Of a stretch of 64,000 nucleotides of DNA, positions 6,151 to 62,500 are shown piece after piece (position 1 is the stretch's first letter; each line of letters opens with the position of its first letter). The notes beneath the pieces are model-generated. The model was not told where the DNA came from. It saw only the letters and a list, made by a program, of their open reading frames with translations, and did not search any database. The DNA lies in assembly GCA_031213475.1 (NCBI GenBank), contig JARUPZ010000015.1:9204528-9268527 (forward strand), written 5' to 3'. A program made the position numbers and the translations under genes. The DNA comes from Nereocystis luetkeana (Eukaryota; Sar; Phaeophyceae; Laminariales; Laminariaceae).

Positions 6151-6483
6151 GGTACCTGGTATTGAACATGGTACCGGGTACTTGCCAGGCTAACAGCTGT
6201 CGTTGCTGCGCTTTGATGTGAAAACAACAACAGCAAAAGCTCACCAAAAGGTTCAAGGAAAAAAACCATACTAGACCCCACAACAACACCCGAGACCTAG
6301 ACTCGGGATACACAAAAATCAAGTTGAAAAAATATTTCGTCGGTTGTTTGTTTTTCAATATTGTAGAAACTCCACCTCTTTGTTCGTTAAATCATTGTCC
6401 TGCTCTTTTTTATCGCGCACGCATTCCACCCGTCTTATGATATTTTTGTTTTGTATCATGGTATTGCTCATTAAAAAGTCGCC
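6151..6483. other. Gene-free stretch
   Basis: Contains the first TACCTGGTA motif (6153-6161). No gene recognised. Confidence 0.35.
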
Positions 6484-6835
6484 CCCGGTGGCTTGGTAGG
6501 TGGTCCGCGTGCCTCTCAAGATCAATTTCGTGGGTTGAAGTCTCACCGAGTGCATGCTCCTAGGGGCTCTCTCTTGCATAAATATATATATATTAGCGAA
6601 AACGGCGAGAGCGTGACTTAGCTACATTCGATGAAACTCGACGAGCTGTGGGAATGCTGAACTCTATGCGCGACAAACAATAAAGGCACGTACCGAGGGG
6701 GAGAAGGGTAGACACCTATGACCACGGCCTGTCCAGAAGCTCGTTGAGGCTAAACCTTCCTATGAGCTAGGCTGGAAAGTGAAAGTGATGATTGAAAAAC
6801 AAACAAACGAACAAACAAACAAACAAACAAACAAA
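6484..6835 (+). mobile_element. SINE family B, copy 1
   Basis: tRNA-like head: A box GTGGCTTGGTAGGTGGTC, B-box region GTGGGTTGAAGTCTC (the usual GGTTCGA has become GGTTGAA). Then a body with the A/C-type core (gagagcgtgac…attcgatga…ctcgacgag…aaggcacgtaccgagggggagaaggg) and a (CAAA)n tail at about 6795-6835. A second copy is at 45419-45762. Confidence 0.8.
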
Positions 6836-7579
6836 ATGTAGAGAAATCCCAGCTACCAGGCTTGTTTCTCATTTTGAACAGTAGAGGTGTTACCCGCCTA
6901 GCACCCGTACCCAATGGGTACCCGCTAGTTGCGGGGGAGAAATACCGGGTAATAGGCTCCCGGGTACCCAGGTACCAGATAGTTTACCCTGGAACCCCGG
7001 GGATGGTACCATACCATCCCCTGAATCACATGCCGTCTGGAAGTGTTCGCACTCGTTTGCTGCATGTTCGAGGTTGAGGTTGGGTCGACGGATCTTTGCG
7101 AACTCCGGCCTTCGCCCTCTATCGAGGTACCCGGTAGACCCTTGGATGCTGGACTGGGGATCGGTGTTGGGTATCATACACCGAAGCATTGGCAGTGGGA
7201 TACCTCGTGCCATGTGTGTGTGATTCGCTCGTTGTAATTGTGAGAAGGAAAGGGGTAATTCGCACCAAGTGCTGCCCGGCGCACGTGATCTGGGGGATGA
7301 TAAGATTGCGCTTCCGGGGTTTCCAGGTCACATTATCGCGTACCGTGCGCCCGAACACCCGGCGAATCCTACTCGAACTATAACCCTAACCCGAGAAAAG
7401 TATCGGCAGGCTAAGTGATACCCGCAAGTACCCAGACAATGGACAAAAAAGGGCAACACATATACTGGACTGGGAGAGAGTGTGGTGTCGTTCTCTCTTC
7501 TTGTCGTTTGTCGATCTCACAGTCGTTGAGTGTTACAGCTATTTTATTCCACAAAAGCAAATCAAACGTCCTGGCTCAC
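6836..7579. other. Gene-free stretch downstream of the last recognised exon of the left gene
   Basis: Rich in GGTACC/GGGTACC palindromes (about 6900-7015) and with one CCCTAACCC (7382-7390). An exon linking 7580-8427 to 1-666 might lie here or further left, but I could not find one with acceptable splice sites. Confidence 0.3.
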
Positions 7580-15644: not shown

Positions 15645-18546
15645 CTGGGGACAGCAGTGGTTGGTCGAATAAAAGGTGGCCGTATATAGCAGCAAGGTGA
15701 CGGAGGGTACGCGGCCGATAAAAAAATATACGGTATGCATGTGTTCGAGTGGGGTTAGGTGAATACGACGTAGCAGGACGTGGATAGAGGAAACAAGCTT
15801 TGGGAACCTGCTGTACGCATAGATATTGCCCTTGAAAAAAAGGAGTTTTGAGCTCTTAGGGATCCAGGTACTGAGCTCTCAGGGACTCAGGCACCACGAT
15901 CAGAACCGTGAGAACTGCGCTCGCTTAGGCCCAGGTGGTTAAAGATTCCGAAACCAGGTATCCGGACAACTCGAATCGCCGATTAGTAGACCGCATACGA
16001 ATAACACCCTCGACGATGAAGCAAGCCGAGGCCGTCGGACTACGGTTAGATGGCGAAATATAGACATAGTTGTGTCGCTACGAGCGAGTCCCCGTCATTA
16101 TACTACCGTACTTATCCCCTCTACTCTACTTGCGATCGAGCCGTTGTTGTTCCTTCAGAAAGAGGGACCACTCATCGCTTCTGTCACAAGACAATCCGGG
16201 CGAGGCAAAAGCTAAAAAACATCAATTTGCCACGTGTGAGTGATCAAACTATCCAAAGGCAACCTGCACAACAATAGTAGTCGGGTCCGTCCCATACGTT
16301 CTGCCTTGTCTTTCTCTGGTGCCTCGAACATTGGTCTCCTAACTTGAGGACTGCAATACCACTTCGGGCAAGTAACTTGGAATGAGAGTTGGATTTGTTT
16401 CGTAGTGTAGACCCAGTAGGTTATTATATTCAAAATTTAGTTGTGTGCCAATGGGCATCAGCGCATTCCCCTCCTGTGTCATGACCATATGGCCACGTCT
16501 AATCCTCGACCTTTCACATCAGGACACCAGCACACATTAAAAACCGACAACAGGTGGCATGCACAGCAGACGTTTAGTGGAACAAAACGCGTCAAATCGG
16601 CATTTTTTTCGCATAAAGTTTGGCCGACTTCGCCCTTTAGTCCTCAAATTTGCCAATTTCCCTGTCCGACGTAAGGAAGGCTTCCAAAATTGCGCGCTGA
16701 ATTCGACAGTTAGGCAATGAAATTCAGCGGGACTTTTCTTCTCACAAAAGAAAAAGTATCGCTGGCCTTTCTTGTAAAAACACGACAAATGATTAGTTGG
16801 GGACCAAAACGAGTGAGGATCTCAACACAAAAATTACAAAGTACGTGCACAGTACTCAAAAACGCTGCCCCAGATACTAAAAACCCTCTTCTAAAGGCCA
16901 CAAGCGTTTTCTTTAATCGCGTATTCCTGACAACATTCGTTTTCCAACTGTCGAAACCAGCGTACACTTTCGCGAAAAAGGAATCTACTATTGACAGGTC
17001 TGCGTGAAAAACCAGCTCGCACGACTCCGTCAACCATTTCACACATCAGAGTGGTCACGATCTACTGCTGTACACTGCTGTACAGCAATAGATCCTCTAC
17101 AGCAGTAAGTTCTAACCGGTTTTAAATGTGCTACGTATGCTAGATCATACAGATCAGGAATCTATTTAATACCAGGTATAGTTTGCCGTGATGCCCACTT
17201 GAAATATTGAAAATAGAGTTGAGTTTTGATGCCCACTTTTTTTTCTGCGTATCGTTTCGAAAATAATACTGCCATGAGAGGTCTAGATCATCACGTGGAG
17301 GTCAGTGATACATGTCCAACGTGTGATTCCTTTTGGGTATTGGGGCTCGGGAGGAGACTATGATCGAAAAAAATGATCATGCCAGCATTATTAGCCACAT
17401 GTCGCAAAAAGGCGCTGCTGGGTTAGTGGGTGCCGAATATTTAATGTGGTGCCCAAACGCGAATCCAAGGAGTGATATTTGGTGTTGGACATCGTATCGG
17501 ATGTTCCCATATATCGAGAATCGTGTCGGTTATCAAAAAGCGGGGAATGACTTGTCCCGAGATCCGATAAAAATGCCGTTCTTCTAGCTGGGAGGGGGCA
17601 TCACTCTACCGTCCCTTCCCCCCCCCGTTGAAAATCCAGGGTAACAATTCGTCGCGAGAAGTCAGAAGGAAATAACCCTGTTCTGTGAGCTCCTCGGCAG
17701 TACCATGACCTGCAATTCCTTACTCCCGCCTCGCATATCGTTTGTCCCATCGGCATTGCAGTTTTCATCGATCCGATCCGATCCGATAAATATCGGATTG
17801 CTTCTCGGATACCTGGTACTGGTATGTTTTTTTTTCCATATCGGATCGGAATCGATTATCGTCCCGACATCCAAGATTAAAGTGTGATGCATGCGTGCAA
17901 ACATAACGGCCACCCGTTACCCAGCGAGCACAATTTTTCAGACGCGTGGTTTCACATCGCTTTCCATGTTCCTGCTCGATATAACGGGGGGATTCGAAGG
18001 GGGTGCTGGGTACGCACTGGATATGGGTGTATTGTATACCTTCATCCATGAAACACAGCAGTGGCATGCTCATGTGCGCTATGCGGCTTCGCCTTGGATG
18101 GCCGCGTCGACTCAAAAGCGAGAAACATGAAGAATTAAAAAAAACTGATGGGCGGGGACAGCAATCAATGGGAGATCACGTGTGAAGTTCTACAACATAG
18201 AAATATACTCGTATCGAGCTTGACCGGAGGACGGGAGGTACCGGGTAAGCTGTTGCGAGCGCAGTAGACATATTCGAGGCAATTGATGTATGTGTGCACT
18301 TGGTTTACCTGTATATTGCCGGAAGGTACAGTGCGGCGGTGTAAGTAGATAATGTCCTTCCTATATTGTTAAAAGAATGAGTTACAACCCCAGAAGCATG
18401 TCCTTCGCACAGCCACAGCAGAGGCGAGCAACAGCAGCAGAGGTTGTTCTATAAGGGCGGCGGCTGGCTCGGAACGGCGACGAGCAGCAGCAACGCGAAG
18501 GAACAGTAAGAACTTTACTGCGTTACGCGTTTACGGACCGCACCCA
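15645..18546. other. Gene-free stretch
   Basis: No convincing exon on either strand. It holds a MITE-2-like fragment (about 16335-16390, gaggactgcaatacc…acttggaatg) and two TACCWGGTA motifs (17170-17178, 17810-17818). A run of GATCCGATCC at 17768-17790 is simple sequence. Confidence 0.35.
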
Positions 18547-18774
18547 ATGAAACCCCCTTTCCGCTTCTCGGAGAGCAAGTCGTTGGCGGATAAGACCGTT
18601 GACGAGATCACGAAGATCGGGAGGTTGAAGGCGGAGAACGGAGCGAATTTCTACATCGGACCGACCACTTGCACGCAGGCCCGACGGTCAAAAGAGGAAA
18701 CGGGACAAGTGTTCCCCGACCGCGAACGTGCTGCCACTGGCTGTCTCCAGCTAGCTCTTGAGTCAGTTTTCTAA
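18547..18774 (+). CDS. Possible small gene or exon, unrecognised
   Basis: 75-codon frame from ATG to TAA with mixed, non-repetitive composition (…SLADKTVDEITKIGRLKAEN…), more coding-like than its surroundings and preceded by a CAG-rich GC stretch. There is no recognised domain or promoter, and it could be chance or a decayed fragment. Confidence 0.2.
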   Translation: MKPPFRFSESKSLADKTVDEITKIGRLKAENGANFYIGPTTCTQARRSKEETGQVFPDRERAATGCLQLALESVF

Positions 18775-19892: not shown

Positions 19893-19983
19893 CATAGGAC
19901 TGCAGTTCGGTTGTGGGGACAAACTACCTAGAAATTTGAATGGTTAGTCCCAAAAACGGGACTGCAGTACAAAAAGAGTTAAA
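19893..19983. mobile_element. MITE-2 copy
   Basis: Palindromic element: ggactgcagttcggttgtggggacaa … ttagtcccaaaaacgggactgcag. The outer ends are eroded. Same family as 20998-21104 and others. Confidence 0.7.
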
Positions 19984-20997
19984 TCAGCATGTAATTCGAG
20001 GATAACGATGATTGTTATCTTTCGCCAGTCACATCTACCTGGGGGGGGGGGCTATCAATAGTGCTGTGAATCAACAATCAACGCGATGTTTAAACACGTT
20101 TTTTTATTACTTACAATCATAATCGAATCAAATTTTCTTTGATTTATTGATTAATAATCAAATAATCATGATTGAATCAATCACCCCGAAAAAAATGTTT
20201 TTCGTTGATGGTTGTCCTAAAAAATGTTTTTTTTCTTAGTTCAAAGGCGCCCCTGCACTGCTGTGAAGCGATTAATAGCAGATACCTGGTAGGCTTTGTT
20301 TTGCATATATATCTGGACCGACCGTGCACCCCATTCGGGGCTGTGGACGCTTGCATGGCGATACTCTGGAAAAACTCCGCCCATTTTGGGGGAGGCGGGG
20401 ATTGTAGTGTGTAGTTTGGGTCCTCGATTGTTTTTTGTGCGTCCTCGACTTAGACAGAGATAAAGTAACCGCGATAACTGCCCTCGACGCATAGAACATA
20501 CCAAAGCTAATGGGTGGAGCACACCCTCAAAATCAGACCTGTACCTGGTATATTGTCACATAACTACGTATGTATCCCGGGGCGTACACAAAATAGAAGT
20601 ACTGGTATGCCATGGAGGAGACGGGTATTGGCGGATGGAGGCGCAGAAGCAGAGTCACCTCTTACTCGCAAGATAAAATTTTTAGGGAGGTTGCTGGCCA
20701 TTGCAAGGAAAACCCCATAACAAAGCGTTCGCAAAATATATTCCTGCTTCATTACCCATCCCTCTGCTGAGCAATGCTTAAGGCCACGCTGGCACCGAAG
20801 CGTCTCCTGGTCCCCGGCTTTCCGGTGACTGTAATTTCTAGATGTTTTACCGGAACAGGAAAAAAACATCGCTATCTTAACACGCTGCGTTTATTGGAAC
20901 TTGGGCTGGTTGGTGCTTTTACCGGAGAGCGACGGTGACTCGAAGAGATTCGTCACATAAACTCGTGGTTCTCTCGAAATTGCTCCCCCACCGGTTC
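19984..20997. other. Gene-free stretch
   Basis: AT-rich, with runs of aatcatgatt-type palindromes (20110-20190) and two TACCTGGTA motifs (20283-20291, 20542-20550). No gene recognised. Confidence 0.35.
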
Positions 20998-22715: not shown

Positions 22716-22734
22716 GGCCACTTCTTATGCTGTC

Positions 22735-29113: not shown

Positions 29114-29460
29114 AAACTAACGAGCGAATGAAACTGACTACCAGGTACGGCTGTAGCACCACACTATTAATATCAATACATATCAACAGAGTAAAAATAC
29201 TAAGAACCAAGGGAAATAAGAAATACCAGGCAAAACAAAGCACAAAGCACCCTCCAGATAGCGCAATGCCATGTTGTCGAACTGGATACGACAGGCACGA
29301 AAACATTTTCTATGGAATTGTAGAGAAACCGAAGAAACAGAAGAAAAAACTCGAAAAAGAGAAAAAAAAAAAGAAACGAAAAGAGGGGATAAAGGTGCCG
29401 TGCGCCCCCCGTACAGTAGTAGGTGCGACCATGTGACAGACAATACAGAGCGAGCATACC
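29114..29460 (+). repeat. Right part of the split fold-back-family copy and a second unit
   Basis: Continues the interrupted copy (aaccaagggaaataag … caaagcaccctccag) and then starts again (gcaatgccatgttgtcg…gatacgacaggcacga), so two units lie in tandem. A TACCAGGTA motif (29139-29147) interrupts the first. Confidence 0.6.
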
Positions 29461-29561
29461 ACCACAAAAAAAACAGATTAAATAAAAGAAAGAGCGAAGC
29501 ATATTTACCTGGTATATCATATTAGCACGACCAATCCTGAGTAAAGGACAACGATATATTT

Positions 29562-29747: not shown

Positions 29748-29751
29748 GGGA

Positions 29752-33637: not shown

Positions 33638-34235
33638 AGGCTACCAGGTATTAAACATCTGGTAGTATTTATAGTGGCATTCCTCAAATGCTTGGCTACA
33701 ATTTTTTTTAATTGAAAAACTCAGATCAGCCTGAAACTCTTAATTTCTAGATTATCAACACTTTTCGCGTACTAAATTTGGTGCAGTCAGTCTAGGAGTC
33801 AACCCGCGGTCTATACGTATATTGTCAAAAAAACTATGTCATCCTACTACAATGCCATCCGTTGCAACGGATTGCACAGAACACGTCGTACGACTTCGTT
33901 CATCAAGCACAATACATGCGGTACATACAGTACCACCGTTGCACAACAGCACGACAAGGCAGTGACGTGCAGCAGTGCAGCAGGGGGCACATAATGATTG
34001 ATGAGAGCCTTCGTACCGTATTTTTGGAAGAAGAGCCTTGAGGTTTTGGTGGCTCTTACGTTCTTCATCAATGAACACTGGAGATGTTCGATACCTGGTA
34101 CCTTTTAGGGATTACCCTCATCGCCATAGTTCAATGGCGCGTGCCTGGTATGTGAAAACTAAGTTTTGTCTTCAATTACCTTGGATCCATTCAAAGTATC
34201 GTGTCCGAAACTCATAAATTGCCCCCCACCCCCTT
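33638..34235. other. Gene-free stretch
   Basis: Two TACCWGGTA motifs (33642-33650, 34092-34100). No gene recognised. Confidence 0.3.
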
Positions 34236-34618
34236 TGTGCGAGGTAAAAAACTCCGCACGAGGGAGTTGGTCGTATCACGTACCTGGTAGTGTTCATGGT
34301 AAGGCACCCAAGAGGCGGTTACGTAGTACTCCCATTGCTGTCTCTGGAAGTGGCTACACCGGAAATTGAAGCTGACATCCATAAGCAAGCCCGCCTCACA
34401 AGCTGTTCCGTGTAGGAAGCAGCTCACCCTTCATGCGACTCGCCGGGCACCTCACGGCGCTTCGTGCTTGGTGCAAGCAATGTCTGCCTGGTCGGTGAAA
34501 ACCCGACATGCTCCGTCCCGGCATTATTGTAGGGATGCGAGTGTCTATGGTAATAACATACGACTACGGCCATGCATGATACCAGGTATCGAGTACATAT
34601 CTCCTATCGAGTACCCCC
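34236..34618 (+). repeat. Repeat X, 5'-truncated copy with two micro-insertions
   Basis: Matches X from gtgcgaggtaaa to the C-rich end. Relative to 31698-32230 and 43391-43848 it carries two exact 7-bp insertions, producing TACCTGGTA at 34281-34289 and TACCAGGTA at 34580-34588. Confidence 0.8.
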
Positions 34619-35569: not shown

Positions 35570-36167
35570 TAGGTGTCCTGTACTCCTGTAATGTATGTAC
35601 TGTATTAAGTTGTAATGATGTATTCGACGCGATGGTTGCTGCATGCTGATAATTATATGATGCGCGTGCTGGTGGTTGCTGCATGCAGTAGAGAGCACGG
35701 CACATCGTCTTATCATCTTATCATGCCGCATCATTTCTTTAAAAAGTTGTGTACGACGTGTACACCGGTGCATAGGTCCATCCCCCGAATTCCGATTAGA
35801 ACCAAGCAGTGCTACTCTGTACACAGTAGTAATACCTTGCGCACGTCGCGCAGATCACGATCTATTAACATACCAGGTATCATATTCGTAGTTCCTCGCC
35901 TGTGTTCATGAGGGGTTTTGCAGGATCTGCATATTAATAGTACACATCCAACCCGGGAAACATACAGATGTTAGACCTCATGTGCTGTAGATTGTTCGGC
36001 TCCCACCCGTCAACATGACGAGCTACAGCTCAGTAGTGACATACGTAGATCATGCAAAGCAGGGAGATGTCTTCCCTGAGATATTTAGCTCCTCAAGTGT
36101 CAATCGATTACTTGTCCAATGTGTGAAACCTTCACACGTCAGACACATCATGATCTATCTACATACA

Positions 36168-39300: not shown

Positions 39301-40203
39301 CCTGTGCTTTAGCGGTCCTCAACCTATATAGGACTGCATTCCCGCTGTGAGGACAATACACTTGGTGTTTGACTCATTTTGAGGTTTCTGTAGAGTGCAG
39401 TAGCAAGAGGATAAACTCTGAACAAAAAAACGCCCTGAGGCTGCCCCAGTCGTGTCGGCACGCGGCACCAAGGGCCACATGTCTCGACTTCCCGATAGGA
39501 ATGGCCCTTTTGCCCACTGTGGAATGGTGACGACATTTTCAGCCTCACCACGTTCGTTCGTGTACATGGCCGTATTGGAATCTGCTGTTTGCCAGCAAAT
39601 AAACAATACCAGGTATACGACCCCCATTCGGCTACTGTTGTCACAGCGAAAAAATAAATAAACAACCAGTTGTATTCGGAGAAGCATCGGTAGAATCCGG
39701 TGTAAACTAGTCTGTGAAAGTAGTGATACACCCGACACACCACCTCTAGCAACGTAAAACGGCAACACTTGATGGCAACCACACCGCGAGAAAAAACATA
39801 CCCGATACGTAAGCATATACCGTAGAGAGCGTTGACTTCGCGCAGGGATCCGACCGTTTTTCAGCGCTCGATTTTTCAAGAACAGGAAGGTTGGTAATAC
39901 CGAACAACTCGTTTTCGGAAACTCTGGTCCAGAGTCCCCCGAAAATAGAGCGTTCGGCTTTTACTAGCACTCTTGCAGTTGTCGAGAAAACGAGCGCTCA
40001 AAAACGATTGCGCTCATGTGTAAACTCAACGCGCTCTGCGGCATTTCGAGTTGGAACCCGCGGCAGCATCGTTCGTGCTCCGTCTATGACCGCGCCAGCC
40101 AAAAGGGAGGCGCCCTAATGGTGTTACGTGTAGCGCGGTGACGTTGTGTGTGATGTTGTCAAAACTACTGCACAGCAATAATAGCATATATGCGTGTGCT
40201 AAT
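36346..40203. other. Long gene-poor stretch
   Basis: Several short frames but none with splice sites plus a recognisable domain. A GC-rich patch (37.6-38.2 kb) and another at 38.9-39.1 kb are the only compositional exceptions. Contains a partial MITE-2 (about 39325-39390) and one TACCAGGTA (39607-39615). Confidence 0.35.
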
Positions 40204-41270: not shown

Positions 41271-41700
41271 CATTGGTTGCCGTCGGCAGAAAAGTATCGC
41301 ACGTACTGCAGGCGGTATGTACAATGGCCGTTAGCTATTGTGAGGGGCGGCCGCGCGCGCGCTTGTTGTGGGCGAACAAACCCTGAAAACAAACTAAAAG
41401 CAGCACCCGGCCTTCCCACGTGGCCCCCCAACTGTAGACTATACTATAGCGGTCGTTGGCGTTTGTAAGGGACGCGCCCGAGCTCGATTTTGGGCGGGCG
41501 ACACAAGGATTGAGACGAGGAAAAAAAGAGAGAAAGGGTTTCCCACATGGTGCCCCGCCGTAGTACTGGTCTGGTCCGGCGCCGCTTACCTTCATAGAGG
41601 GGACGGGATGTGGTGCGATCGACGTGGTATGGGCGTCCCTGGTTAGGAACAAATTGCGGCGGCAATTTATAACCCGAGAAGAGCAAATGCCCTTGTAGGG
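41271..41700 (-). repeat. Dispersed repeat (unnamed), copy 1
   Basis: Pairs with 42788-43115: ggtcggcag…tatcgcacg, ggcggtat…aatgg, gagctcg, ccgtagtact, gatgtggtgcg, cgacgtggtatgg, aataacccgag. Diverged to perhaps 70-75% by eye. No conserved frame, class unknown. Confidence 0.6.
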
Positions 41701-42787
41701 GTGGTGCCTTATTTTCTGAGGTACTCACATGGCGAATTCAATATCCCATCCGAAACATGCCTTTGAAGAACGTTTGTTCGCGTAACCCGACCAACACTTC
41801 TAGGCGCTACGTAGTCCAAAGAAAGTGTACTATGTAAAGTGTTATACCAGCAACAGCCTTTAGTTGCTCGGTTGAAGAGCTGAGTCGGTCAGAAATTATT
41901 GCCTCAGGAGGCAAAAAAAAGTGCACCCCACAGCGTAGAAAGAGTCAGAAATGGTACAGTCAGAAACGGTACAGCAAGAAGCGGTAGTGTCGCTCCCCTA
42001 TCCCTTTGGTTTTGGGATTCTCAGTTTCACGATAGTATGCGAAGTGGAAAATTCTTTGTGGAAGCCCGTTTCCGACTCTCCATTCCGGAATCTTGAATCT
42101 CGATTTTAAACAATAACATAGAAATGATTTCTTCCCCCCCAGATGAAACCCTTGTGGAAGCATTACATATTTTTTATTGTGGTAACATTGGGCTTTTGAT
42201 TATCAGTTCGCCGGAGGAATGAAAATATAAAATTAAACAAAATAAATCGGGTGCATCTATATCCACTGTGTTTGGCATGGAAGTTCAATTTATAATTTTA
42301 ATAGTCTCGCTCCCTGTAGGGGGGGGTGGCGAGATTCCAGATTCCTGATTGCGGACTCCCGAAAGTTGTTGTGAACGGGGCTTCAATACTGCGCGACTAG
42401 CTTATGAAGCCCTAGCCACTCTTTCGAGTAGCATAACCGCTCTTCCGAGTAGCCTATTAATAGTGGCCTAAACCCGGTACGTAGTGAACATGGGAGTCTC
42501 CCCCCCTCCGGTGCTTGGGCAAACAACGCACCCATACAATGGGCGTTGTAGCCCCCATACCCTCCCAGTACCCCATCTCGAACGGAAGGCGTGGTCAACG
42601 GTTAAATAACGAAGGTAAGCACCGAAGGAGCACCCCCCCCCACTTCCCCCGCCCCCGTACCACGCGCAGCCTTGTGAGGTTGGCTCGCCGAAGCAGGTGC
42701 TGGTATACTGCATGATGTATTACACGAATGATACCATTCATAATTCTCGTAGCCCAAACAGTCGTAGGAATTGTATACCAGGTATAT
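41701..42787. other. Gene-free stretch
   Basis: Contains pseudo-tandem short repeats at 41945-41980 (agaaacggtacag) and a TACCAGGTA at 42776-42784. Nothing else recognised. Confidence 0.3.
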
Positions 42788-43115
42788 TTCAGTGGTTGCT
42801 GATTGGGGTCGGCAGGGAACTACGAGCGTATCGCACGCACTGTATGTAGGCGGTATTATGATAATGGTCGTTGGAATTTGTTGTAAGGGGGTGCGCGCGA
42901 GCTCGCTTCGAAAAACGCTTTGAGACAAAAACAAAGAGAGCAAAAACACCAGGGCTTTCCCACGTAGCCCCCCACCGCAGTACTTACTAAACCAGGCCGA
43001 CGCCGGTTAACTTCACAGAGCAGACCGGATGTGGTGCGGCCGAGGTGGTATGGCTGTTCCTGAGTCGTAAGAACTTGGCGGCCATCAATAACCCGAGCAT
43101 CGGTACAGTATAGGG
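42788..43115 (-). repeat. Dispersed repeat (unnamed), copy 2
   Basis: Second copy of the 41271-41700 repeat, same orientation. Confidence 0.6.
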
Positions 43116-45884: not shown

Positions 45885-46235
45885 TGCTTCTTACCTGGTA
45901 TGTTTATCACGGTCCTTTCCAGTTGGTTGTTGAGTTGTTACTGCGGTGCACACGACGAGCAGGAATACGACGATAGCTACCACCAAACAAGGCCCCCTCA
46001 CGGCCGTCTCTCCGAGAAAAGGTCAGACATGAGCTATTAACAGTGTGGACGCGGGTGCGAAACGACACGTAAAGGGCCTCACTTTTTCAAGCTTGATGTT
46101 TCTCACGGCTATGTCCAGTTCGTTGCTACGTTGCCACTGCCGCGCACGCTAGCAGGAGCGGGACGACAACAGTTACGCCCAGAATTAACTCCATCACCAC
46201 AACAGGGCCCCCTTAAGGTCGTCTCTCCGAGGCAA
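45885..46235 (+). repeat. Diverged tandem duplication, unit about 200 bp
   Basis: 45895-46018 and 46093-46235 share …cacggtcc/cacggcta..tccagtt, gttgttactgc/gttgccactgc, gcacac/gcacgc, gggcccccttaaggtcgtctctccgag. The first copy has a TACCTGGTA (45892-45900) where the second has only 2 bp. Confidence 0.6.
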
Positions 46236-48054
46236 TAAATTCAAGAGATGGAGCCAAACAACACAGTATGCTGCTACCCAGAGGCCGGGAATATTACTCC
46301 CGTTTGATCTTGACATCAGAGCCCAAACGTAGTTTATATTCCTTGCCAGCAGAGTACATCAGAGCCCAAGCGCGGACTACTGTCTACATTCGGTCAAAGT
46401 TTATGGGATTACACTCTACACGTTGGACAGATCACCATCTAGATCATCTACGAGTATAGATCATCTAGGTCCTAACCTGCAGCAATGAGGTGTTGTGCAG
46501 GATCTGTATCAAGTACAGGTCCAACCGAAGAAATGTGTGCTACTTCACCAGGTAGGTATGGATCATGCAGCAAAAATGTACGGCTCCCACCCGACAACAT
46601 GAGCTGTGGATCGCACAGATCAGCAATACACTAATGTATATATCTGTCCTGACATATCTAGATCGTTACCTGGAAAACGATGATATGTCCGAGGTGAGTC
46701 ACAGCTCCCGGCCCGAGTGGTGCATACATACTCGAAATATGTAGGAGACTGTAAGCTCACGAAAACTGATTTCATACTAAAAAGACTTTACCTCTGCATA
46801 CTGGTTATGAGTTACCAGGTATCCTGTTTGTCGGCGCTGATATGGTCTGGTGGGCAGTGCTGTGTGCAACTCGGGTTGCCTGGTACACTCCGACAGATAC
46901 GTAGGTGCGAGGGACGACTCAGCTAGCTTTTGTTGGTGCTCAAACGCAAACCGTTGACTGGCTGCCCCACCCGCACCAAGGCCAGTGCGAAAAGGCAAAA
47001 GAAGAAGAAAAAAAGACCTTGACGCGCCGCAGACAGGTCTCCAAATACGGGGGGAAGCACAGCAGTAAACAGAACCCAACATGGTGTAAACACATATGGG
47101 GGTAAATGATATTTAGGGTCCATCGTCGGTCTCGATTCTTACTACAAATGCCCCCCCCGTACATAAGCGCACCAGAGGGTATCTGCTTGTCGATGCCGCA
47201 GGTCGGCCCCTTGACTGACCACCACCGTGCACTAAAACCAGTATACTGAGGCCTAAAGAGGCCCTGCCGCACCCGAAAAAAGACGGGTCTTCTAGCATAT
47301 TCGATCGGACACACCGGAAACATAACCGAAACTACGATTACGCCGTCGACCACTACTCCTGCTGCAGCCCCCTTAATCCGGACAACGAGCAAGCTATCCC
47401 ACGCCAGTACACCACCCACGTCACTGCGAACACCTCGAAATCGAAGTGTTCTCTTCACTTTCCAATCCCCCCCCCCACACACATCTTGACGAAGCCGAAC
47501 GCAAGAGTCCGGTTGTATTTTTCTTTAATTCTCCTATAAAAAAAACTACCCGAACAAAAAACAGAAACAAAAAGAAAGTACAGAACAGAAACAGAAGGCA
47601 AAATAGAAGAAAGTAAAAAAAAGAGCGTTCCCACGAAACCCTCCCCTCTTAATTTCACACGCAAATAAAATAACCACAGCTTGGGGGGGGGAAAGCGGGA
47701 GGGGGGCGGAAGCAGGGGTGATGAAAATCTCCGCAAAAAAATCCGCCCAAATAACAAAAACAAAAGAGTGTACGGAGGTTTTTGCTGTCATCAGTTTTTC
47801 CGCTGTTTTCTCCGCCGCGCCGAGCTAGCTGCAGTACAGTCGATGTTTCGCAATCGGCTCCGCTAAATAAAAAAAGCCAGGGCGAGGAACAACTGCTGGA
47901 CAAAAATAAGCACATCACCCTCGGACAAGAAAGCGAGAGAGCGAAAAAGATGGGCACCGCGGCACGAGTAGCACAGAGCCACAGCAGCAGCAGGTCCCAC
48001 CTTTTTTCTTTTATTTAAACGGCGCCAGGTAAGGCGGCGAAACTTCTTACAGTT
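46236..48054. other. Gene-poor stretch
   Basis: No exon recognised. Includes a TACCAGGTA (46813-46821) and a T-rich-on-minus stretch (47520-47640). The HMG-CoA reductase transcript probably ends in or before this region, but no poly(A) signal could be assigned. Confidence 0.35.
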
Positions 48055-51600: not shown

Positions 51601-54600
51601 TGTCCGCGAACGCCGTAGCGCGTTCAGTCGAAGATATTGCCACGATGGCAATGTCTGAAACCGACTCAGTCACGTCGTTTACGAACAAACACCGTGACAA
51701 GTTTTCCAATTTCCGGATATGCTTTCATCACAAGTGAGGGTAGTGTTTCCGGGTACCAACACTAGAAAAAGAGACCAAGCCAACGACGCCAATGTGGGGC
51801 GGAGCCCCGGGCAGGTTCTCTCTTATGTGGCTGTGGTGTGGAGAACACACCGAGGTGGGTTGGTGTCTCGAGTCTTCGGGGAACGGAGTGAGTCACCTAT
51901 GTTGACCTTGAACTTGTGTGTAATGAGGCGGTACTATCTAGGGGAAGGGGACCTGGTATCCATAAACTAAACAAAACAAAAATCCAAACGAACACGGGTA
52001 CTGAACAACAAATAACCAAAAATACAGCAACAGGAAAACAAGCAAACAGGGATCGATCATGGGAGGGAGTGGAAGCGGAAAGGAGTTGACGTCATCACGA
52101 ATAGCTGTGCGCACGAGAGGGTGTTTTCTAGGGTCAAGCTGAAATATCGACGAATCACGCTCTGCCGGGGCGGGGGGGGGGGGAGGATCAGCTCTGTTCG
52201 ACCGAGATACCCATGCCGACACCCTTCGCACCCAACATCAAAGGTCTTCCACTCTCGAGCAACATATTATACTCACGTACGTACGAGACCTTCGGACGTG
52301 TCATGGCATTTTTTCGATTTCAACACCGTACATCTCGTGTAGGGGGGCGGTCAGTCAAGGGCGGTCAAACCGCAGTCTCCTGTGCATTGCGAAAGTATTC
52401 CTAGTATAGAGGGGCGGTCAGTCAAGGGCGGTCAAACCGCAGTCTCCTGTGCATTGCAAAAGTGTTCCTAGTATAGAGGGGCGGTCAGTCAAGGGCGGTC
52501 AAACCGCAGTCTCCTGTGCATTGCGAAAGTATTCCTAGTATAGAGGGGCGGTCAGTCAAGGGCGGTCAAACCGCAGTCTCCTATGCATAGCGTAAGTTTT
52601 ACCAGTGCAAGGAGGGGGGCGGTCGGTCGGTCTCCATTACAGCTTGCACAGCATTTTTTGCTTGTCACCACCCCCTTCCCACCTGACAGAATAAACACGC
52701 CTTCCAACACCCTACCAACCCGACAAAAACACGCCCTTTGCAACTTACGAGAAGGTCCCCGTCGTCAGTCTGTTCCATGGGCGTGATACAGCTGCTCGAC
52801 CCCACGTTCCGCGCGGAGTCTTGACCCTCTTGACTGACCGACCCCTACACAAAAGCTAGACTTGCTTTCAGTCCTTGAATTATATTCAATACAAAGTTCC
52901 CCTCCGGGAATATTCAATACATGCCCATAAATAGAGGTCCCATCACAATATGGGATTAAAGGATCTTTAGGTTGATGGGCTGTTCAGGTATTTTGGTTCC
53001 TGTTGGGATCAAGGTACGGGCGAAGACCCAACCCAACCCCTGACTCTAACCCTAACCCTGACCCGTTCACGCGCCAGAAAACACCGGTCCCTCTACATCT
53101 ACATCACCTTGGCTCATCCATCGCCACTTGGCTTATCGCCACCCTCCTCACCCGACAACAAAAAAACGACTTCTAACTCACGAGGAGGTCCCCGTTGTCC
53201 ATCTGCTCCATGAGCGTGATGCAGCTGCTCGACTCCACGTTTTGGGCGGGGTCTTGTCCCGTAGCGAGAAAGACAGCGGTGACCACGTTGGCGGCGTGGG
53301 CGTTGAAGCCGCCCAGCGCGCCAGCCATGGCGCTCCCCACCAGGTTCTTCTGAATGTTGGTCTCCACCATCGCCTATTAATAGTATATGCGCGGTGAACA
53401 CGTGTTCGGAGGACAGACAACGAAGAGTAAATCGAATAAATGGCAGAAAAAAAATTAACGTATTCGTTCTGTACCCCTATTAATAGTACACAGATAAAAC
53501 ACCAGGATGTTGGCGAACACCATCGCCTAGGCGACGCGACCGTTTTCTCTTCACAGGCCAAGGAATTACCCTGGTACTTCTTCTTTTTTGCAACAACGGA
53601 AGACAAAAAAAAAATCAACACGAACGCAAACACACACAAGAGGCAACAAAACGAAACAAAACAAGGCAAGGCAAAAACAAGACAAGACAGACCTCATCCA
53701 ATAACTATTACGGGGGACCATAGTTGATACCTGGTAGGACCTATGGTACACATAAAAACCTACCAGGTATATATTTTAATAATGTTTACCAACAATATTT
53801 GATCCTATTAACTATGGACCCCCGTAATAGTACTAGATTCATTACGGGGGACCATAGTTAATAGGACCAAAAGTACACATAAAAACTTATATATTTAACC
53901 ATTTTTACTAACAATATTGGTCCTGTTAACTATGCCCCCCCGTAATAGTGTTAGGAGCCCTCACCTTGACCGTTGTCTTGAGGGTGGCCTCGACGAATTT
54001 GCTGGGGATGCGCGCCTCGCACACGATCGACTTCCCGCGCCCCTCCACCCAGTTGATCGCCGCCGATTTTTTGTCCGTGCACATGTTGCCGGAGATCGCC
54101 ACCAGCTCCATCTCGGGGAACACCTTCGTCATCGGAGTATTATGGATTACATCAAAATCGTTCTTGGGCGAAAAATCGTGATTATTCCGTCATTAATCGA
54201 CCCAGCAAAAAACGTGATCGTAGACTAATCGTTTCAGCAAAACATTAGACGGAGGTCATTGGAAACGAAAAACGTATAGGGGAGAACAGACACACGAAGG
54301 CCGTCGGCGAACAGCTGCCGGAGATCGCCACCACCATGTCGAAGCTGGGCCAAGAAGCATAAACCGAAAGCCACAAAGACTGTAGTACTGTGGCATGGTG
54401 CAGAAATTTTGACAAGAAATAAAAACTCAGTGTTCGTCCTCAATAGCAACTATTACGGGGGACCATAGTTAATAGGACCTACGGTATACATAAAAACCTA
54501 TATATTTGACAATTTTTACGAACAATATTTGGTCCTATTAACTATGGTCCCCCGTAATACTACCAGGTACAGGTATACCCATACGGATTCCCTGCTACTC

Positions 54601-55206
54601 TAAATACTGCCACAAACAGCTATTACGGGGACTACCAGGTACAGGTATACCCATACGGATTCCCTGCTACTCTAAATACTGCCACAAACAGCTACCTGGT
54701 ATTACGGGGAACCATAGTTCATAGGACCAAACAGTGCTAGTAGAAGTGGTTAAATATATAGGTTTTTATGGATGCCACAGGTCCCATTAACTATGGTCCC
54801 CCGTAATACAACTACAGACAGCTACTACTACCGCAAGCAACGACAACAACGCTCATTCCGTTTAATACATTGATACTTTCGTTTTTCTGCCTTTTCCGTT
54901 CGACATCCTCACATCCTGAAGCAGGTCGACCACAGCTAGAACCCCCTTGGACACCATGTTCATCCCCATCGCGTCCCCGGCGAAGCAGTTGAACCGGAGG
55001 TAAACGTTACGCCCGGCCACCGTGGACATCAGCCCCTGCAGCTTTCCTGTCGTGGCGACACGGTCATCCCGGGTGAATTGCGCGATGGTCGTGGCGGTGG
55101 CGGAAGGGGTGGTTCGGGGGAGGGAGGAGGGGGTGAGGGCGGGGTATCGGTAGCGTTGGCGGGGGGCTAAGGGGAGGGAGGAGGGGGTGAGAGCGCGCGC
55201 GGGGGC

Positions 55207-55239
<33 letters not shown>

Positions 55240-58200
55240 GATGTACGCAGCATGGGGAAAAAAAAACATGCTGCCCTACAATCCCACCCGCGTCTAAAAC
55301 GTGTCCCCTCAAGGAGATCCCCGCCCCCGACAGCAGCCAAATTCCCGCTAAATAGCCAGTCACCTCTCTTCCCCCCCCCCCCCCCCCCCCCCCCCCCCGA
55401 CGTTTCCTCTGCGCTCCGTCCCGCCGCCTCTTCGCTCCCCCTTTCCTCTCCCTCCCCACCCCCCCTCCCTTCTCTCCCCTCCCCCACCAGCCTCCTCCCT
55501 CCGACCTCGTCGCTGTGAAGAAAAGGGATGGTTCGTGGTTTGCGTTACTCGAACGAAAAAAAAAAGTAAATCGGGGGCATACGTTCGTAAAATCAACGCG
55601 ATGTCATAAAAGCAAACGCTCCACCTCCCTCCCTCTCTCCCTCCCTCTCTTTTTCCGCCCCCTCACCGAAGCTGGTGGTGGTCTCGAAAGCGGCCTTGAT
55701 GGCGTCGAAGTTCTCCTTATCCTCGAACCATCGCTTAAGGCCAGCCGCCGCCATCGCGTCCGGCATGCGCAGGCAAGGGGCGCGCGTGATACCATCCTTC
55801 AGCAGCGCCGCCCGGCAGCCCCCTCCCTGCCCGATAGCCTTGCACCCCCTGTTGGTGCTGGCCACGAGGCAACCCTGTGTCGGTGTGTTCGAACAGTGGG
55901 GAAACCAAGAAGTTCGAACAAGGTCAAAAACAAGGGCGATGACAGCAACAATGACAACAAGCACCGGAAACTCCGGCAACAGCAACAAATAAAGATAAGA
56001 TAGCCTTGGTGCATCATCGGGAGAACGAACAAAAAAAAACAAAACGATTAAGCGCCATCACCTACAAGAGCAAAGAGAAGCACGAGAAAACCATGCTATG
56101 AACGCCTTGGTCAAAGATATGAAACGGCTCATGCATGTCCGGACAAGAGAGGTGGTACCTGGCGAGTGTTTTGAAACGGAGGACTGTCGCAGTAGAAGCA
56201 AGCAGCAGCAGAGCCACCGGCAGAGCCAATAGCAGCATCGGCAGCTTAGCCGAGCAGTAGCGACATCACCAGCAACAGCAAAAACATTCATGACATCAAC
56301 AGCAGCCCCAACATCACCGATCGCAGCAGCAGCATCAACAGCAACATCAACTCAACATCAACACCAGCAGAAGCAGTCGAACCCAACGCCAACCTCAACA
56401 TCAACACCAAGCGGCAGCCGCCACGACACCAGCAGCGGCTTATCAAGACCTACCCACAACGAAACCCCCCCCCTCTTCCTCCCTCCCTCCTTTGCATCGA
56501 AAAAAACGTAATCAGCGCCGAAAAGTTGGAGCTGACTCTATTAGGAGTAGGAACTGTGCTGTCTCGAAAGGGATACGTGGTCAATGGTCCAAACGACGAA
56601 GGTCCTGGTCAAATGACTAAGGCAACCAACAAGTGCGTACGCCGTCCTCCCCCGCCCCCTGAAAGTCTTATCATCTTACGACGTATGCCCATGCATAACA
56701 TGAGCACACCACTCCCCCATCCTCCTGCGACCGACTCGCCTCGGTGGTGGCCATGGGAACGAAGACCTCAGAGCCGTTGAGCATGAGGGGTCCAACGACT
56801 CCGACGGGGATGGGCACGTAACCGCAAACGATCTCGCAGTTGGCGCCGAAGATGCGCTCGTAATCGTACCCCTGCATGGTGAGAAAAAAAAACAGCAAAA
56901 AAAGGGCCAGCCGTTACAGTAGTATTTCCTTTGTCAAAATTTCAAAATTTGTAGTGAGAATAGGCGTTTCAATGCATATGGCAAATGTTTCCAGTGAGAA
57001 TGGGCGTTTCCATGCCTAAGAGAAGCGTTGCTATGAATAGTGAAAGAACCCGTTTCCATGCCTTTGGCAAATATCTCTTCACGTTTCCATGTATATGGCA
57101 AGTCTTTCTAGTGATATTGGGCGTTTCCATGTTATGTTGAAGGTTGCACAAAAAAGGGGGCGTTTCCTATGCTTCACCTGTACGGGGAGGTTTTCCATCG
57201 ATCGGCCGATACGCCTCTCGAACAAGGTGCGCCGCACCACCACCGCGCGAGCGTGGTCACCGAGCTTCTTCTCCAGCTGGTGGTCCTTAAGCTTGCCCGT
57301 CACCACGCACGCCACAACCTGGAAACAAACGCGCACAAACAAAATACATGTTAACAAAACGTCAGCAACAGAAACAATAGCAGCAGCAGAAACAACAGAA
57401 GCAACCAAAACAGCAACCAACAGCAACAACAACCACACCACAACAAAACATCACCAAAACAAAAGCCTCTTGACAGAAGGAGGAGGGGGGGGGGGTACTC
57501 GATAGGAGAGATGTACTCGATCTCATGCATGGCCGTAGTCGTATGACCATAGACCCTCGCATCCCTACAATGCCGGGACGGGGCATGTGCAGAAGAAGGG
57601 GGGGGGGGGGGGGGGGGGGGCAATAAAAAAGGGGGAACACCGGCTGTATAGACAAACGATGTGCCGAGAGCCATACTACTGAAGCCTCGGCATTGCAGCA
57701 GCATCGGAAAGGGTAGCAAACGATGTGCCGAGAACCATACTACTGAAGCCTCGACGTTGCAGCAACCTCGGAAAGGGGTATAGCACAATTTGCCTCGCAA
57801 GGCAAATGTTTCTGCCTGTCTGATACGCTTCTACACCGAGGAATTACCCAATAAGGCATGCCTTACCGCTGGAATAAGGTGGCGCAATTTGCCTCGCAAG
57901 GAAAAATGTTTCTGACTGACTAATACACTCCTCAACCGAGGCATTGCCCAATAAGGTACGCCTTATCGCTGGAATAAGGTGGCACGATTTGCCTTGCAAG
58001 GCAAATGTTTCTGACTGACGAATACACCCCTCAGCCGAAAAAAAACAACAAGGCACACGTAGTATCGCTGTGAACCTAGACCATGGGATTCTTCCTCTGG
58101 TTTTTCCTCTTCATGTTTCTGAAAGTTATTGCTTCGGTGAGGAACAGGGTTGCCCCCCTCGAGCAAAAAGCCTCACCAAATGTAGGTGCACTCCTATCGT

Positions 58201-59510
58201 ATATAGGAGTAATGTAGGCTACCCCTGCCCCTCTTACCTCTTCGTCGGTCATGTCCGGGTACTCCTCCCCTTCCGGGATGGCCCCCAGAGGAGCCGCAGG
58301 GGGAGACGGGGTTTTCGCTACGGTCGCCAGCTGAGGCGTTTCTTTCGAGCACATGGTGCTCCCTGCCTGAGGAGGCTTGTTGCCTGAAGGGGCAGGGGAT
58401 GCGGGGACAAGCGGAAACAGCGACAAGGAGTGAGTGATGGCCACGGTCAGAGTTTGCATGAAATGATGGTCCAGAAGAGCTTGGGAGGGAGCAACGGACA
58501 ACAAGAACATAAGAAAACCTTGGGCCGATTGATGGCAGAGGGGGCGGGGGTGTATTCATGCCATGCATGGCCGTAGGCGTATGGCCATAGACCCTGTAAA
58601 TCATCCCTGCAATGTCGGGACGGGGCGTGTCGGGCTTTCACCAATCAGACAGACATTGCTTGCATCAAGCGTGAAGCACCGTGAGGTGTTCGGCGACTCC
58701 CATGAAGAGTGAGCTGCGTACTACTAAAAACCGCTTATGAGGCGGATTTTCTTGCATGTGGATGGCAGCGTCGAATGTGGGGGGAGGGGGAGGGGGCGTT
58801 TCTTTAGAACACAGGGTGCTACTCACCTCGGGGGGCTTGTTGCCTGGGGGGACAGGGGACACGGGGGTGACGATGGACACGATCAGAGTGCATATTTATA
58901 CGACGAAGGCCCGGGAGAGGGTGAGAGGGAAAAACACAAACTACTAGGAATTAGTGCGGGGTAGTTTTCGTGCCGTTAAAAAGGGTGAAGAGGGATCAAT
59001 TTCGATTTGAAAAAAAAAAGTGGCAGCAGTTCTACACGGGGTGTACAAGGCCTTCAAAACTGAAACCCCTTGATTAAGGGACAAACTACTTGAAACCACG
59101 ATTGCGCCGTAGTATTGGTACTATGATACCGTATAAAACCCAAATACTAACACCCCCCGACGAATGTCAGGGTTGATTTTTCTCCAGGACATGCCTCAAG
59201 GGGGGAGCGCCCAACGAAAATGGCGGCTTTGGGGAGATCTCGTCGAGATCCTTTTCCATAAACGCGTCGCTTGGGGCTTGCGCTCTCCCCGTCGTCGAGA
59301 AGCTCAGCTATGAAAAAAATACGCCCGGGGGGGTGTGTTATCTCATCACCCTAGTGTGATAGTGTAATTTAGGTAGCACAACAAGCATGGTGGCGAAAAA
59401 AACTCGTACTCGTAGTGGGGAGAGATGGCGAACGCGACCAGAGCCCGGATACGATGGCGATCAGCAAGAGGTAGAAGGATGGGGCAAACAAAAGGTTAAG
59501 AAGACAAAAA

Positions 59511-59549
<39 letters not shown>

Positions 59550-62500
59550 ACAACAACAACAACCTGGGCCGATGACAGCGGAGAGGGAGCGTCTCGTCTC
59601 GTCTCGTCTCTTCTCACCTCCGTTGCCCGAAGCCTTCACAAAGCTTCCGTCGCGGGGCTTGCTGTGCGACGTGTACAGCTGCTCGTCGAGGTGGGACAGC
59701 CCGAAAGAAGAAGGGCTGCGCTCCATCGCGTTTGTGTCCAGGAACGAGATGCCGAAGAACCCGAAAAAGTACGCCATGCACCCGGACCTGTTAAAAGAAA
59801 ACGCGCAAGACACAGGAAGCGTTTCGAACAAGGAGCGGGGGGTACTCATGTCATGCATGGCCGTAGTCGTATGGTCGTAAGACCCTCGCACCCCTACAGT
59901 GCCGGGAAGGAGCATGTCGGGAGTCAACGGAATCGTTCGGCGAAAAAAGACGTCATGCACTCGGACCTATCGAATAAGTGCACCACACATAAATAGACTT
60001 TCCAACAAGGGAGGGGAGGCGACGGAACCGATAGGCAGCAGAGAACACAATGCACCGGGTGTGTCAAAACCCAATATCAAGCCGTGCTAGAGTATACCCT
60101 GGTATACGTTATATACTGGTATGGGTTTTTGCATTTTTGGGCCTAAACAAATATGATTAAAGGCTCCCCCCATACTGGTAAGGGTCTTTGCATTTTTCAG
60201 CCTAAAAAAACATTATTAAGGGCTCCCCCCAACGAAGAATCTACCCAACACTAATAGGGTTCGATGTGATTCACACTATATCTTCGTTAGATAAATATCA
60301 CGTGGGAACATAGTAATCACACCCAGACATTACCTATACAACAGTGAATACAACAACAATCGTGGGTTCAAAATAATATGCTCCCCCGTAATACATAGCC
60401 CATGGGATTGCTCGTGTCTGGGCCTTAACTTCCTATTGTTCTTAAAACCCTTTCAGGACTGCAGTCCCGTTTTGGGGACAAATTACTTATAATTTGACTG
60501 GTTTGTCCCCAAAACGGGGCTGCGGTTCTAGAAGGGTTAAATGTCACAAGAGATCCTCAAGTGGAACGCCTCCGCATAATTAGGAGCTACCCCGACCGTA
60601 GCACGCATCTACGAAAATAACATGTATCTTGTGGGCGCAGCGTATGGAAGCATTTCGACTAAAGGCGGGGAGGGGGGGGATGGGGGCCCGGCATCATCAT
60701 TCCGCCAATGAGTACGCACGCTGTCAAAGTGGGTGTGAGGGTATCTGGTGATGCGCCCGGCCTAACGAACATCTCCACTCATTTGGGGAGGGGGGTGGGG
60801 TGCAAGGTGCAGGCCATACACCCCAAGGTGGAGTCTTGCGGCAGCGGCACGCCCCCCCCCCCCCCCCCTCCCCGCCTACCCCACCCAACCCCTCCCGAGT
60901 GCTTACGAAAGAAGCCAAGACAGACCGCTCATTTTGGGCGCGTCAAGACCTATCCTGGCCTTGACACATCATCACGGAGACCCATCGTAAATACGCCCAA
61001 AATAAGCCCAAAGAACCCACTGTGTTGCGTTTATCTCGAGAACCATTGCGTGAATCAAAAATGTCGTCTGTGCACGACACGCGGTTGATGATGGGCTTTC
61101 CATCGATGCTACATTTTGTAGCCTAAAGAAATACGCTGGGAAGCTTCTCTTTTCTCTCCCCCCGCCTTAGGCCTCTATATATGGGACCACCGTGATAGCT
61201 ACGAGTACCGTCGTGGTTCCTTTATAGTGCCTGTGGAATCGCTTGGCACAGATGAGATGACCAGTGTATCAGTGTGCTATTAATAGTACCGGTTGCCGTT
61301 ACTATAGTGCCGGTATTGTTGACTGGCACTATAGAGGGACTACTGCCGTACATAGTGTATGTAGGGAGAGGGGCGGCAACCCCACCCCACCCCACCCCTC
61401 GGAGTCCCTAACAACTTATCGTGTCACAAAGAGAACGGTCTATTTCGGGCGCGTCGACCCCTCTTTTGGCCTCACTATTAATATTAGTACTGTAGTTAAG
61501 TGGGCGGTCAGTCAAGGCGTCAAGCAGAAAGCACAACGACGCCAGGAGAGACCATAGTTTCATTTTTTTCGGGCGAGTTAATCCTTTCAGGGCAAAAACC
61601 GCGGTCCCGTATTGGGGACAAACCACTCAAATCCCAAGTACTTTCTCCCCAGAACGGGACTGCAGCCTAAAAGGGTCAAGGTCCATTGTGACCTTACTTA
61701 TTCTACGGTAGTTTTAGTGCAGGGGGTCGGACAGTCGAGCGGTCAGACCGCGGTATCCTAAAAATAGCATATCTGGTGGCATCTTTGGACGCGTCAAGGT
61801 CTCTTGTAGCTTTACGGAACTATTTTTAGTGCAGTCGAAGGGTCAAACCGCGGTCTCCTACCACTAGACTAGCTTTTTTGGGCGCGTCAAGGTCTCTTGT
61901 GGCTTTCTTAGACTGTTTCTAGTGCAGTCCAAGGGTCAAACCGCAGTCTCTCATAGCATGTTTGGGCGCGTCAAGGCCTCTTGACGTGGCTATACTATAC
62001 CTGGTAATGTTTTCGAGTACGGGGGGCGGTCAGTCAAGGGATCAAACCACGGTCTCCCACTGGTAGTACATTTGGGCCCGTCAAGGCCTCTCGTGGTCTC
62101 ATCGCACTGTTTTCAGTGTATGAGGGCGGCCAGTTATAGAATCAGACCGTGATCTCCCCTAACAACATCGTTGGGCGCGTCAAGGCCGCTTGTGGCCTCA
62201 TCATACTGTTTTTAGCGTCTGCGGGCGGTCAGCCACGGGGTCAAACCGCGGTCAACTATAAACTAACCCGTTTAGGACTGCACCCCTTGTGGGGACAAAA
62301 TACTTGAGACTAAAATAATATTAAGGTTCATGCTCAGCAGTGCAGTACTATTATTAATAGCACGTTTGGTCCTTGTCCTCACCAAATGACGAGGATCGGG
62401 AACAGCCCGCCGTTTCCGTTCTCCGCATGGCTCATGGTCCGGTAGTTGAACACCACGTACGTGATCGAGCACACGAACAGCGCGATCACGAGGTAGTTGA

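Follow-up and report, generated by a model that had tools for sequence, protein, structure and literature searches.

A recurrent 7-bp insertion at TA dinucleotides of the brown alga Nereocystis luetkeana: probable excision footprints of a TA-targeting transposon

What process has placed the same nine-base word, TACCWGGTA, at unrelated positions in a stretch of the Nereocystis luetkeana genome was the question raised by this locus. The window, which is the whole stretch of 64,000 nt analysed here, corresponds to positions 9,204,528-9,268,527 of contig JARUPZ010000015.1, in an assembly of 465,085,209 bases and 1,987 contigs. A preliminary description of this DNA had listed 22 occurrences of the word, all of which were correctly placed, and had proposed that they mark exact 7-bp insertions at TA, which would be either footprints of an active element with CC(A/T)GG ends or products of a micro-insertion process. 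In our view, the word TACCWGGTA is likely to be what remains after excision of a cut-and-paste transposon that targets TA and has ends TA-CCA...TGG-TA, most likely TA-CCAGG...CCTGG-TA.

Insertion at TA and abundance of the word

In the window, TACCWGGTA was found 22 times, compared to 0.39-0.85 occurrences expected from Markov models of orders 1-4; at order 5, where the model has in part been trained on the word itself, 3.9 are expected. Among the 32 words of the form TA-xyNy'x'-TA in the window, the runner-up was found six times, and five of these are in MITE-1, a family of miniature inverted-repeat transposable elements (MITEs). Genome-wide, the word was found 182,395 times, or once per 2.5 kb, while the control, which was the same word read backwards, was found 1,744 times (about 100-fold less), and the frequency is thus well above expectation in the genome as a whole. 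A similar excess was observed in an unselected sample of 264 kb, consisting of the window and 20 unselected 10-kb stretches, where 98 copies were found versus 2.4 expected, in 20 of the 21 pieces (L027 was without any). Taking the TA frequency from this sample, about 0.74% of the TA dinucleotides of the genome carry the word, and the flanking sequence is unrelated between most sites. No paper was found that prints TACCTGGTA or TACCAGGTA, the two motif words, as a separate word, although longer printed sequences containing either would escape such a search, and none was found that joins these words with 7-bp insertions or with brown algae.

The paralogue tests, the counts of minor forms and the inverted-repeat scan were based on a larger set of 351,264 bases in 47 pieces (the 351-kb set, about 0.08% of the genome). 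It includes the window, the 20 unselected stretches, four loci chosen for carrying the motif (L001-L003 and L007; L004-L006 and L008 were left out as overlapping), 20 loci with matches to the Pfam family DDE_1 (of which L055-L057 are identical to each other) and two EsV loci. In the paralogue test the 7 bp were deleted in silico at 116 scar sites, and the set was searched for paralogues spanning the junction, which were found for 22 sites. The data showed that 11 of these 22 testable scars had a gap-free empty site exactly 7 bp shorter, nine with a TA and two of the same length with another dinucleotide, while the 7-bp insert was common to the paralogues in none of the 22. The other testable scars either had gaps of other lengths only (four) or were ambiguous (seven). 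The paralogues thus give no sign that the motif is ancestral in the repeats. The empty sites hold one TA, the bases at positions -1 and +1 of the scars vary, and the residue has a TA on both sides, as is expected for elements of the Tc1/mariner/IS630 type.

Six exact 7-bp cases had been reported in the window, of which five were upheld. The 7-bp gap was seen in gapped alignments at four of them. At 34281..34289 (TACCTGGTA) six alignments show a single TA, and four are unclear or have other small gaps. At 34580..34588 (TACCAGGTA) the paralogues are exactly 7 bp shorter, but 14 of the 15 empty alignments show a dinucleotide other than TA, so that the claim that TA had each time become TA-CCWGG-TA holds here for the length and not for the target. 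Two further scars lie inside one MITE-1 copy (53706..53829, plus strand, with ends TTACGGGGG and a TA target duplication): 53728..53736 (TACCTGGTA), with 13 empty-TA, eight other empty and three unclear or other-gap alignments, and 53761..53769 (TACCAGGTA), with three empty-TA, one other empty, 19 unclear and two other-gap alignments. A MITE-1 copy without scars (54451..54559, plus strand) served as the empty-site reference. The fifth case, 54693..54701 (TACCTGGTA), is at a TA bordering a MITE-1 copy, and its 72-bp tandem copy is 7 bp shorter by direct reading (AGC-TA-TTACGGGG versus AGC-TACCTGGTA-TTACGGGG), while a MAFFT alignment of the two copies did not place the gap cleanly. The sixth case, 45892..45900 (TACCTGGTA), was not borne out, as its paralogue at 46.09 kb is shorter by 9 columns, not 7, and has no TA at that place, and the paralogue test was ambiguous. 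At 61998..62006 (TACCTGGTA) all seven paralogue alignments were ambiguous. The TACCAGGTA scars at 54561..54569 and 54633..54641 lie in 72-bp tandem copies, and because the latter was duplicated from the former, the 22 window sites are not all independent. The remaining sites are word matches, namely TACCTGGTA at 6153..6161, 17810..17818, 20283..20291, 20542..20550, 29506..29514 and 34092..34100, and TACCAGGTA at 17170..17178, 29139..29147, 33642..33650, 35871..35879, 39607..39615, 42776..42784 and 46813..46821; none of the 22 scars is assigned to a strand.

A single TA of MITE-1 (CATAGTTAATA|GGACC; empty site CATAGTTAATAGGACC) was followed through the genome. This TA is filled in 471 places genome-wide (237 + 234), while the control gave 0. 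In the first 100 listed copies the centre of the filled site was A in 30 and T in 70, and the presence of both centres at one TA means that filling there arose more than once.

Minor forms, target choice and a second scar type

Besides the two main words, related residues between two TAs exceeded the expectation of a Markov-3 model: CCSGG was found 16 times (2.3 expected), CCAGGG 10 times (0.8) and CCGG 14 times (4.4), and the shortened forms CCAG and CCTG were found 26 and 23 times (13.7 and 10.1). The window contains two sites of the 6-nt variant (CCAGGG/CCCTGG between TAs), at 53567..53576 and 60095..60104, both word matches only. At the MITE-1 TA, CCWGG without the following T was found 48 times genome-wide (once for the control), as CCAGG in 40 cases, followed by G in 23, A in 15 and C in two, and as CCTGG in eight, followed by C in four, A in two and G in two. 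This 40:8 ratio of A to T is opposite to the 30:70 ratio of the full scars (Fisher p=7.5e-10). Four of the 48 irregular forms were read; one was TA-CCAGGG-TA, and the three others were joints in which the right TA was lost and TA-CCAG or TA-CCA(GG) led straight into the right flank GGACC. The mirror class at another TA of the MITE (CATAAAAACC|...) showed CCTGG in eight of nine cases and CCAGG in one (control 0), and T had been predicted there beforehand. The fact that irregular forms keep A at the left and T at the right points to element ends CCA...TGG; judging from these sequences, the left end of the putative element is CCA at its start, and probably CCAGG. The minor forms and their polarity look like repair of the two ends of a removed segment.

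The scar sites also share a target preference. At CCWGG sites the preceding base is preferentially R and the following base Y (RTA..TAY), and a TA is found 7 bp away in 69 of 234 scar flanks, compared to 6.8% of random TAs; the value is 54 of 234 when the 5-base spacer differs from CCWGG by at least two bases. TA is also raised at distances of 14, 2 and 4, and mildly elsewhere (TA-rich surroundings), with the highest value at 7. Exact tandem scars, TACCWGGTACCWGGTA, were found 15,917 times genome-wide (twice for the control), which is about sixfold more than the 2,694 expected at the genome-average second-hit rate. Since a scar has the form TA-N5-TA, each scar supplies the preferred 7-bp spacing. 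Among the 59 plus-strand tandem pairs listed, unequal mixed pairs were CCAGG-then-CCTGG in 14 cases and CCTGG-then-CCAGG in five. In L028, at about 4830-4930, TA-C..G-TA words (TACCGGTA, TACCCGGTA and TACACGGTA) are crowded around two scars, as if the place had been hit many times.

The scars have decayed with time. One-mismatch neighbours of the motif were found 110 times in the unselected sample versus 53.6 expected (an excess of 56), while the exact copies were in excess by 96, which corresponds to an average divergence of about 6-7% per base. A centre changed to C or G was found 15 times versus 1.8 expected, and this excess fits mis-resolved mismatches. That copies have decayed points to inheritance of the scars and speaks against excision in somatic cells only.

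A second scar type was observed in the same genome. The word TATTAATA, in which TA has become TA-TTAA-TA (6 bp added), was found 63 times in the 351-kb set versus 6.4 expected, and in a paralogue test of 62 sites 14 were testable, of which seven had an empty paralogue and one a shared insert. In the window, only the site at 35932..35939 has an empty paralogue, and further sites start at 5627, 5819, 29165, 42455, 53375, 53478, 61278, 61476 and 62352. The flanks of TATTAATA have C, A and T at -1, -2 and -3 with frequencies of 0.53, 0.60 and 0.54, while the same positions at 37 MITE-1 ends in the sample have 0.65, 0.65 and 0.57, in agreement with the MITE-1 target preference TAC-TA-GTA. They show no TA peak at 7, and only one TTAA tandem was found versus 63 single sites. 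A Tc1 footprint consists of two bases of each end, and because MITE-1 begins with TTACGGGGG next to TA, TT and AA between two TAs would be its natural residue. Hence, excision of MITE-1, which is still present in the genome, is the most likely source of TATTAATA. This case supports the notion that TA-targeting elements of this genome leave abundant clean scars, and the match of the flanks supports the use of scar flanks as reporters of the target choice of the donor.

Origin of the scars

As an excision footprint, TACCWGGTA could arise as follows. The element would duplicate TA on insertion, and when it was excised, staggered cuts would leave both flanks with a short piece of its ends. The version that we favour has 5-nt CCAGG overhangs, which would anneal over four pairs with a central A-A mismatch, and repair keeping either A or T would yield TA-CC(A/T)GG-TA, while imprecise repair would yield CCAGGG, CCSGG, CCGG and joints losing one TA. 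Ends CCAGG...CCTGG with 5-nt overhangs are the simplest source of the symmetric product, because in the geometry that we infer only one of their five bases would stay unpaired. We lean towards an overhang of 5 nt; the alternative would be 3-nt ends, CCA/TGG, with a one-base overlap. The process would act in the germline and would have left about 180,000 scars, and because each cut-and-paste jump makes a new scar while the copy number stays the same, a small number of long-lived copies could be enough, given a long time. The element would favour sites with a second TA 7 bp away, and, as this spacing is present in every scar, new hits may be drawn to existing scars. The proposal of a footprint from a TA-targeting element with CC(A/T)GG ends is thus supported, and the repair forms favour it over micro-insertion, while calling the element active is not warranted, given the divergence of the scars and the lack of a donor in the 351-kb set.

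The larger set also agrees with the earlier report that the window holds no intact donor. The inverted-repeat scan yielded MITE-1, a family with ACCC(C/T)TTTAG and numerous isolated cases. In the 264-kb sample, 17 TACCWGG...CCWGGTA pairs had similar inner sequences, and each of them consisted of two full motifs. Among the clusters of repeated TA-CC starts, the 20 shown were mostly poly-C, together with the MITE-1 interior, other repeats and neighbouring scars. The Pfam family DDE_1 gave 28 matches, of which 20 were excised as loci, and two loci had clear ends CAGTACCGGCC. These two (L048, 234-2422, and L051, 167-2399) are about 90% alike and belong to a pogo-like family, about 2.2 kb long, whose ends CAGTACCGGCC(C/A)GC are flanked by TA.

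Several observations weigh against the transposon explanation. TA-flanked inverted repeats 40-3500 bp apart in the 351-kb set included none starting with CCA or CCT except motif pairs and one CCTTA, and the 10 non-motif TACCAGG/CCTGGTA pairs in the set did not match inside. Genome searches gave 0 matches for Pfam DDE_3 and 0 for Transposase_1, the latter with silent controls, and none of the DDE_1 loci was seen with CCAGG ends, as their readable ends begin with CAG. With 0.08% of the genome examined, we estimate that even as many as a few thousand copies of one family could have escaped detection. The repair data leave room for other readings as well: the other 44 irregular forms, beyond the four that were read, may include point mutants, some filled or irregular copies at the MITE-1 TA may descend from scarred MITEs that multiplied, the three TA-losing joints fit microhomology at GG, and equally 3- or 4-nt left ends, with the A part of the left end in both cases, and caution is needed for the mirror class, where T is partly favoured by the CCT of the MITE itself. 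In addition, among the 59 plus-strand tandem pairs listed, the centre was the same in 40 (p=0.009), although part of this excess may come from 7-bp duplication; neither these same-type tandems nor the 70 T centres at the MITE-1 TA are predicted by independent random resolution. Excision products described for grasses (PMC1925063, PMC4423477) are also more varied than these scars.

The uniformity of the product over 182,395 copies, the lack of a donor in the 351-kb set and the same-type bias of tandem pairs, which would fit stepwise addition, could also be explained if a TA-directed enzyme wrote CCWGGTA directly, by templated or protein-guided micro-insertion, with no transposon in between. We give this only an outside chance, since the shortened, 6-nt and TA-losing forms and the left/right polarity look like two-end repair, and since a likely donor exists for the second scar type of this genome. 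An enzyme of this kind that preferred TAs 7 bp apart would make a self-propagating 7-bp insertion, building its own next target some 180,000 times, which we likewise regard as improbable. Both MITE-1 and the pogo-like DDE_1 family with CAGTACCGGCC ends are TA-flanked and could be thought of as the source, but the TTACGGGGG ends of MITE-1 predict TTAA, which is found as a separate scar with the flank preference of MITE-1, the CAG ends of the pogo-like family predict TACWGTA, and CCWGG sites have a flank preference of their own (RTA..TAY, TA at ±7 bp; TAC-TA-GTA for MITE-1), which makes such an origin very unlikely.

Two further explanations would dispense with excision. A conserved regulatory or recombination site under selection would account for a near-palindromic, abundant and uniform word; it is contradicted by the empty paralogues in unrelated repeats and fits poorly with 182,395 copies, some of them in MITEs and between coding segments of HMG-CoA reductase, so that we find it hardly credible. 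Copying of a small number of founder sites, in tandem or to dispersed places as in microsatellite spread, would explain the same-type excess in tandem pairs and the duplicated copy at 54633. However, most sites do not share their flanking sequence, an empty allele of its own exists for each of 11 sites, and other TA-N5-TA words gave identical 7-bp doubles in only one other case in the 351-kb set. Founder duplication, to which we give almost no weight, is therefore not viable as the main cause, and may add a minority of the tandem pairs.

Neighbouring features, known systems and meaning

Several other features were found in the window. Two segments of HMG-CoA reductase, on the minus strand at 53.9-55.3 kb (53929-54189 and 54865-55275), have MITE-1 copies and several scars between and beside them. 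A U2 small nuclear RNA gene and two 5S-like genes were also found; the 5S ribosomal RNA-like sequences are diverged and lie 1.3 kb apart on the minus strand (41526-41640 and 42938-43061), inside a duplicated stretch of 67% identity. The EsV-1-7 family is greatly expanded in brown algae, and its Pfam model gave at least 150 matches in this genome (all the scored ones; 1,718 candidates), in keeping with a brown-algal source. The word TA-CGAG-TA (TACGAGTA or TACTCGTA, 13 places in the window) was found 47 times in the 351-kb set versus 13.0 expected (3.6-fold). Two candidate footprints were rejected: TACWGTA is threefold over-represented, but was shared in 20 of 48 testable sites and empty in six, and the eight cases of a TA-CGAC-TA indel class reduce to one length difference versus the same L023 copy.

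The MITE-1 end gave 0 matches in IMG/VR, and a MITE-1 27-mer gave one in the GTDB contigs, both collections from which records near the source genome may be left out. The GTDB match is in a contig of a Saprospiraceae metagenome-assembled genome (JALZWC010000131.1), where about the first 0.7 kb holds a copy of MITE-1 together with one TACCAGGTA at 663, and this piece is probably algal DNA in a bacterial bin. The tandem motif gave nine matches in IMG/VR, which is within chance by a rough estimate.

Sleeping Beauty leaves the footprint TAC(A/T)GTA, with A or T at the centre, Passer targets TA, and PIF/Harbinger elements make a 3-bp target duplication. In ciliates, internal eliminated sequences are TA-bounded segments removed in huge numbers, and their excision leaves a single TA. 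The mass removal of TA-bounded segments would be alike in ciliates and here, while in this genome each removal would leave a 7-bp scar, and the scars have mutated. The PIF/Harbinger type does not agree with empty sites that hold one TA and with variable bases at -1 and +1. In the literature, the overhang of Sleeping Beauty and mariner is 3 nt (PMC7827188), the footprints of the pogo-type Passer are 0-4 bp (PMC9976928), those of Stowaway in grasses are 2-4 bp of one side plus 1-2 bp of the other, with renewed insertion at the TA of an earlier footprint described in Australopyrum (PMC1925063), and piggyBac targets TTAA and excises seamlessly (PMC7351741); rice transposon excisions (PMC4423477) and the ISY100 transposition mechanism (PMC2170065) were also considered. 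The main text of an Ectocarpus transposon survey (PMC12477816) contains no word beginning with "footprint" or "MITE".

The scars resemble those of Sleeping Beauty and other Tc1/mariner elements in the TA target, in TAs around bases that would be derived from the ends and, on the proposed geometry, in a footprint equal to the overhang, but they are 5 nt instead of 3, number about 180,000, and no donor or matching transposase was found. They resemble Stowaway footprints in that probable end fragments lie between duplicated TAs; the grass footprints are low in number and take several forms, while here one symmetric 5-nt form dominates, and because of the 2-4 plus 1-2 bp reported there, 5 nt is not outside every described range. 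Passer, as a TA-targeting cut-and-paste element, is like the proposed donor, and pogo-like DDE_1 matches exist in this genome, but its footprints of 0-4 bp differ from the 5-nt scars, and the readable DDE_1 ends begin with CAG. The TA target and the 7-bp scar also differ from what is described for piggyBac.

The process is unusual by its uniformity and its number, and possibly by its self-made targets. If the proposed origin is true, about 0.7% of the TAs of this genome are scarred by an element now rare or lost. A 5-nt stagger would exceed the 3-nt overhang given for Sleeping Beauty and mariner (PMC7827188). A target preference recreated by the scar would be a positive feedback turning excision into tandem growth, and a 7-bp insert, which shifts the reading frame, would make the scars a source of small mutations. 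The history of DNA transposons is usually read from surviving copies, while here the excisions themselves would be countable, datable and placeable to the base.

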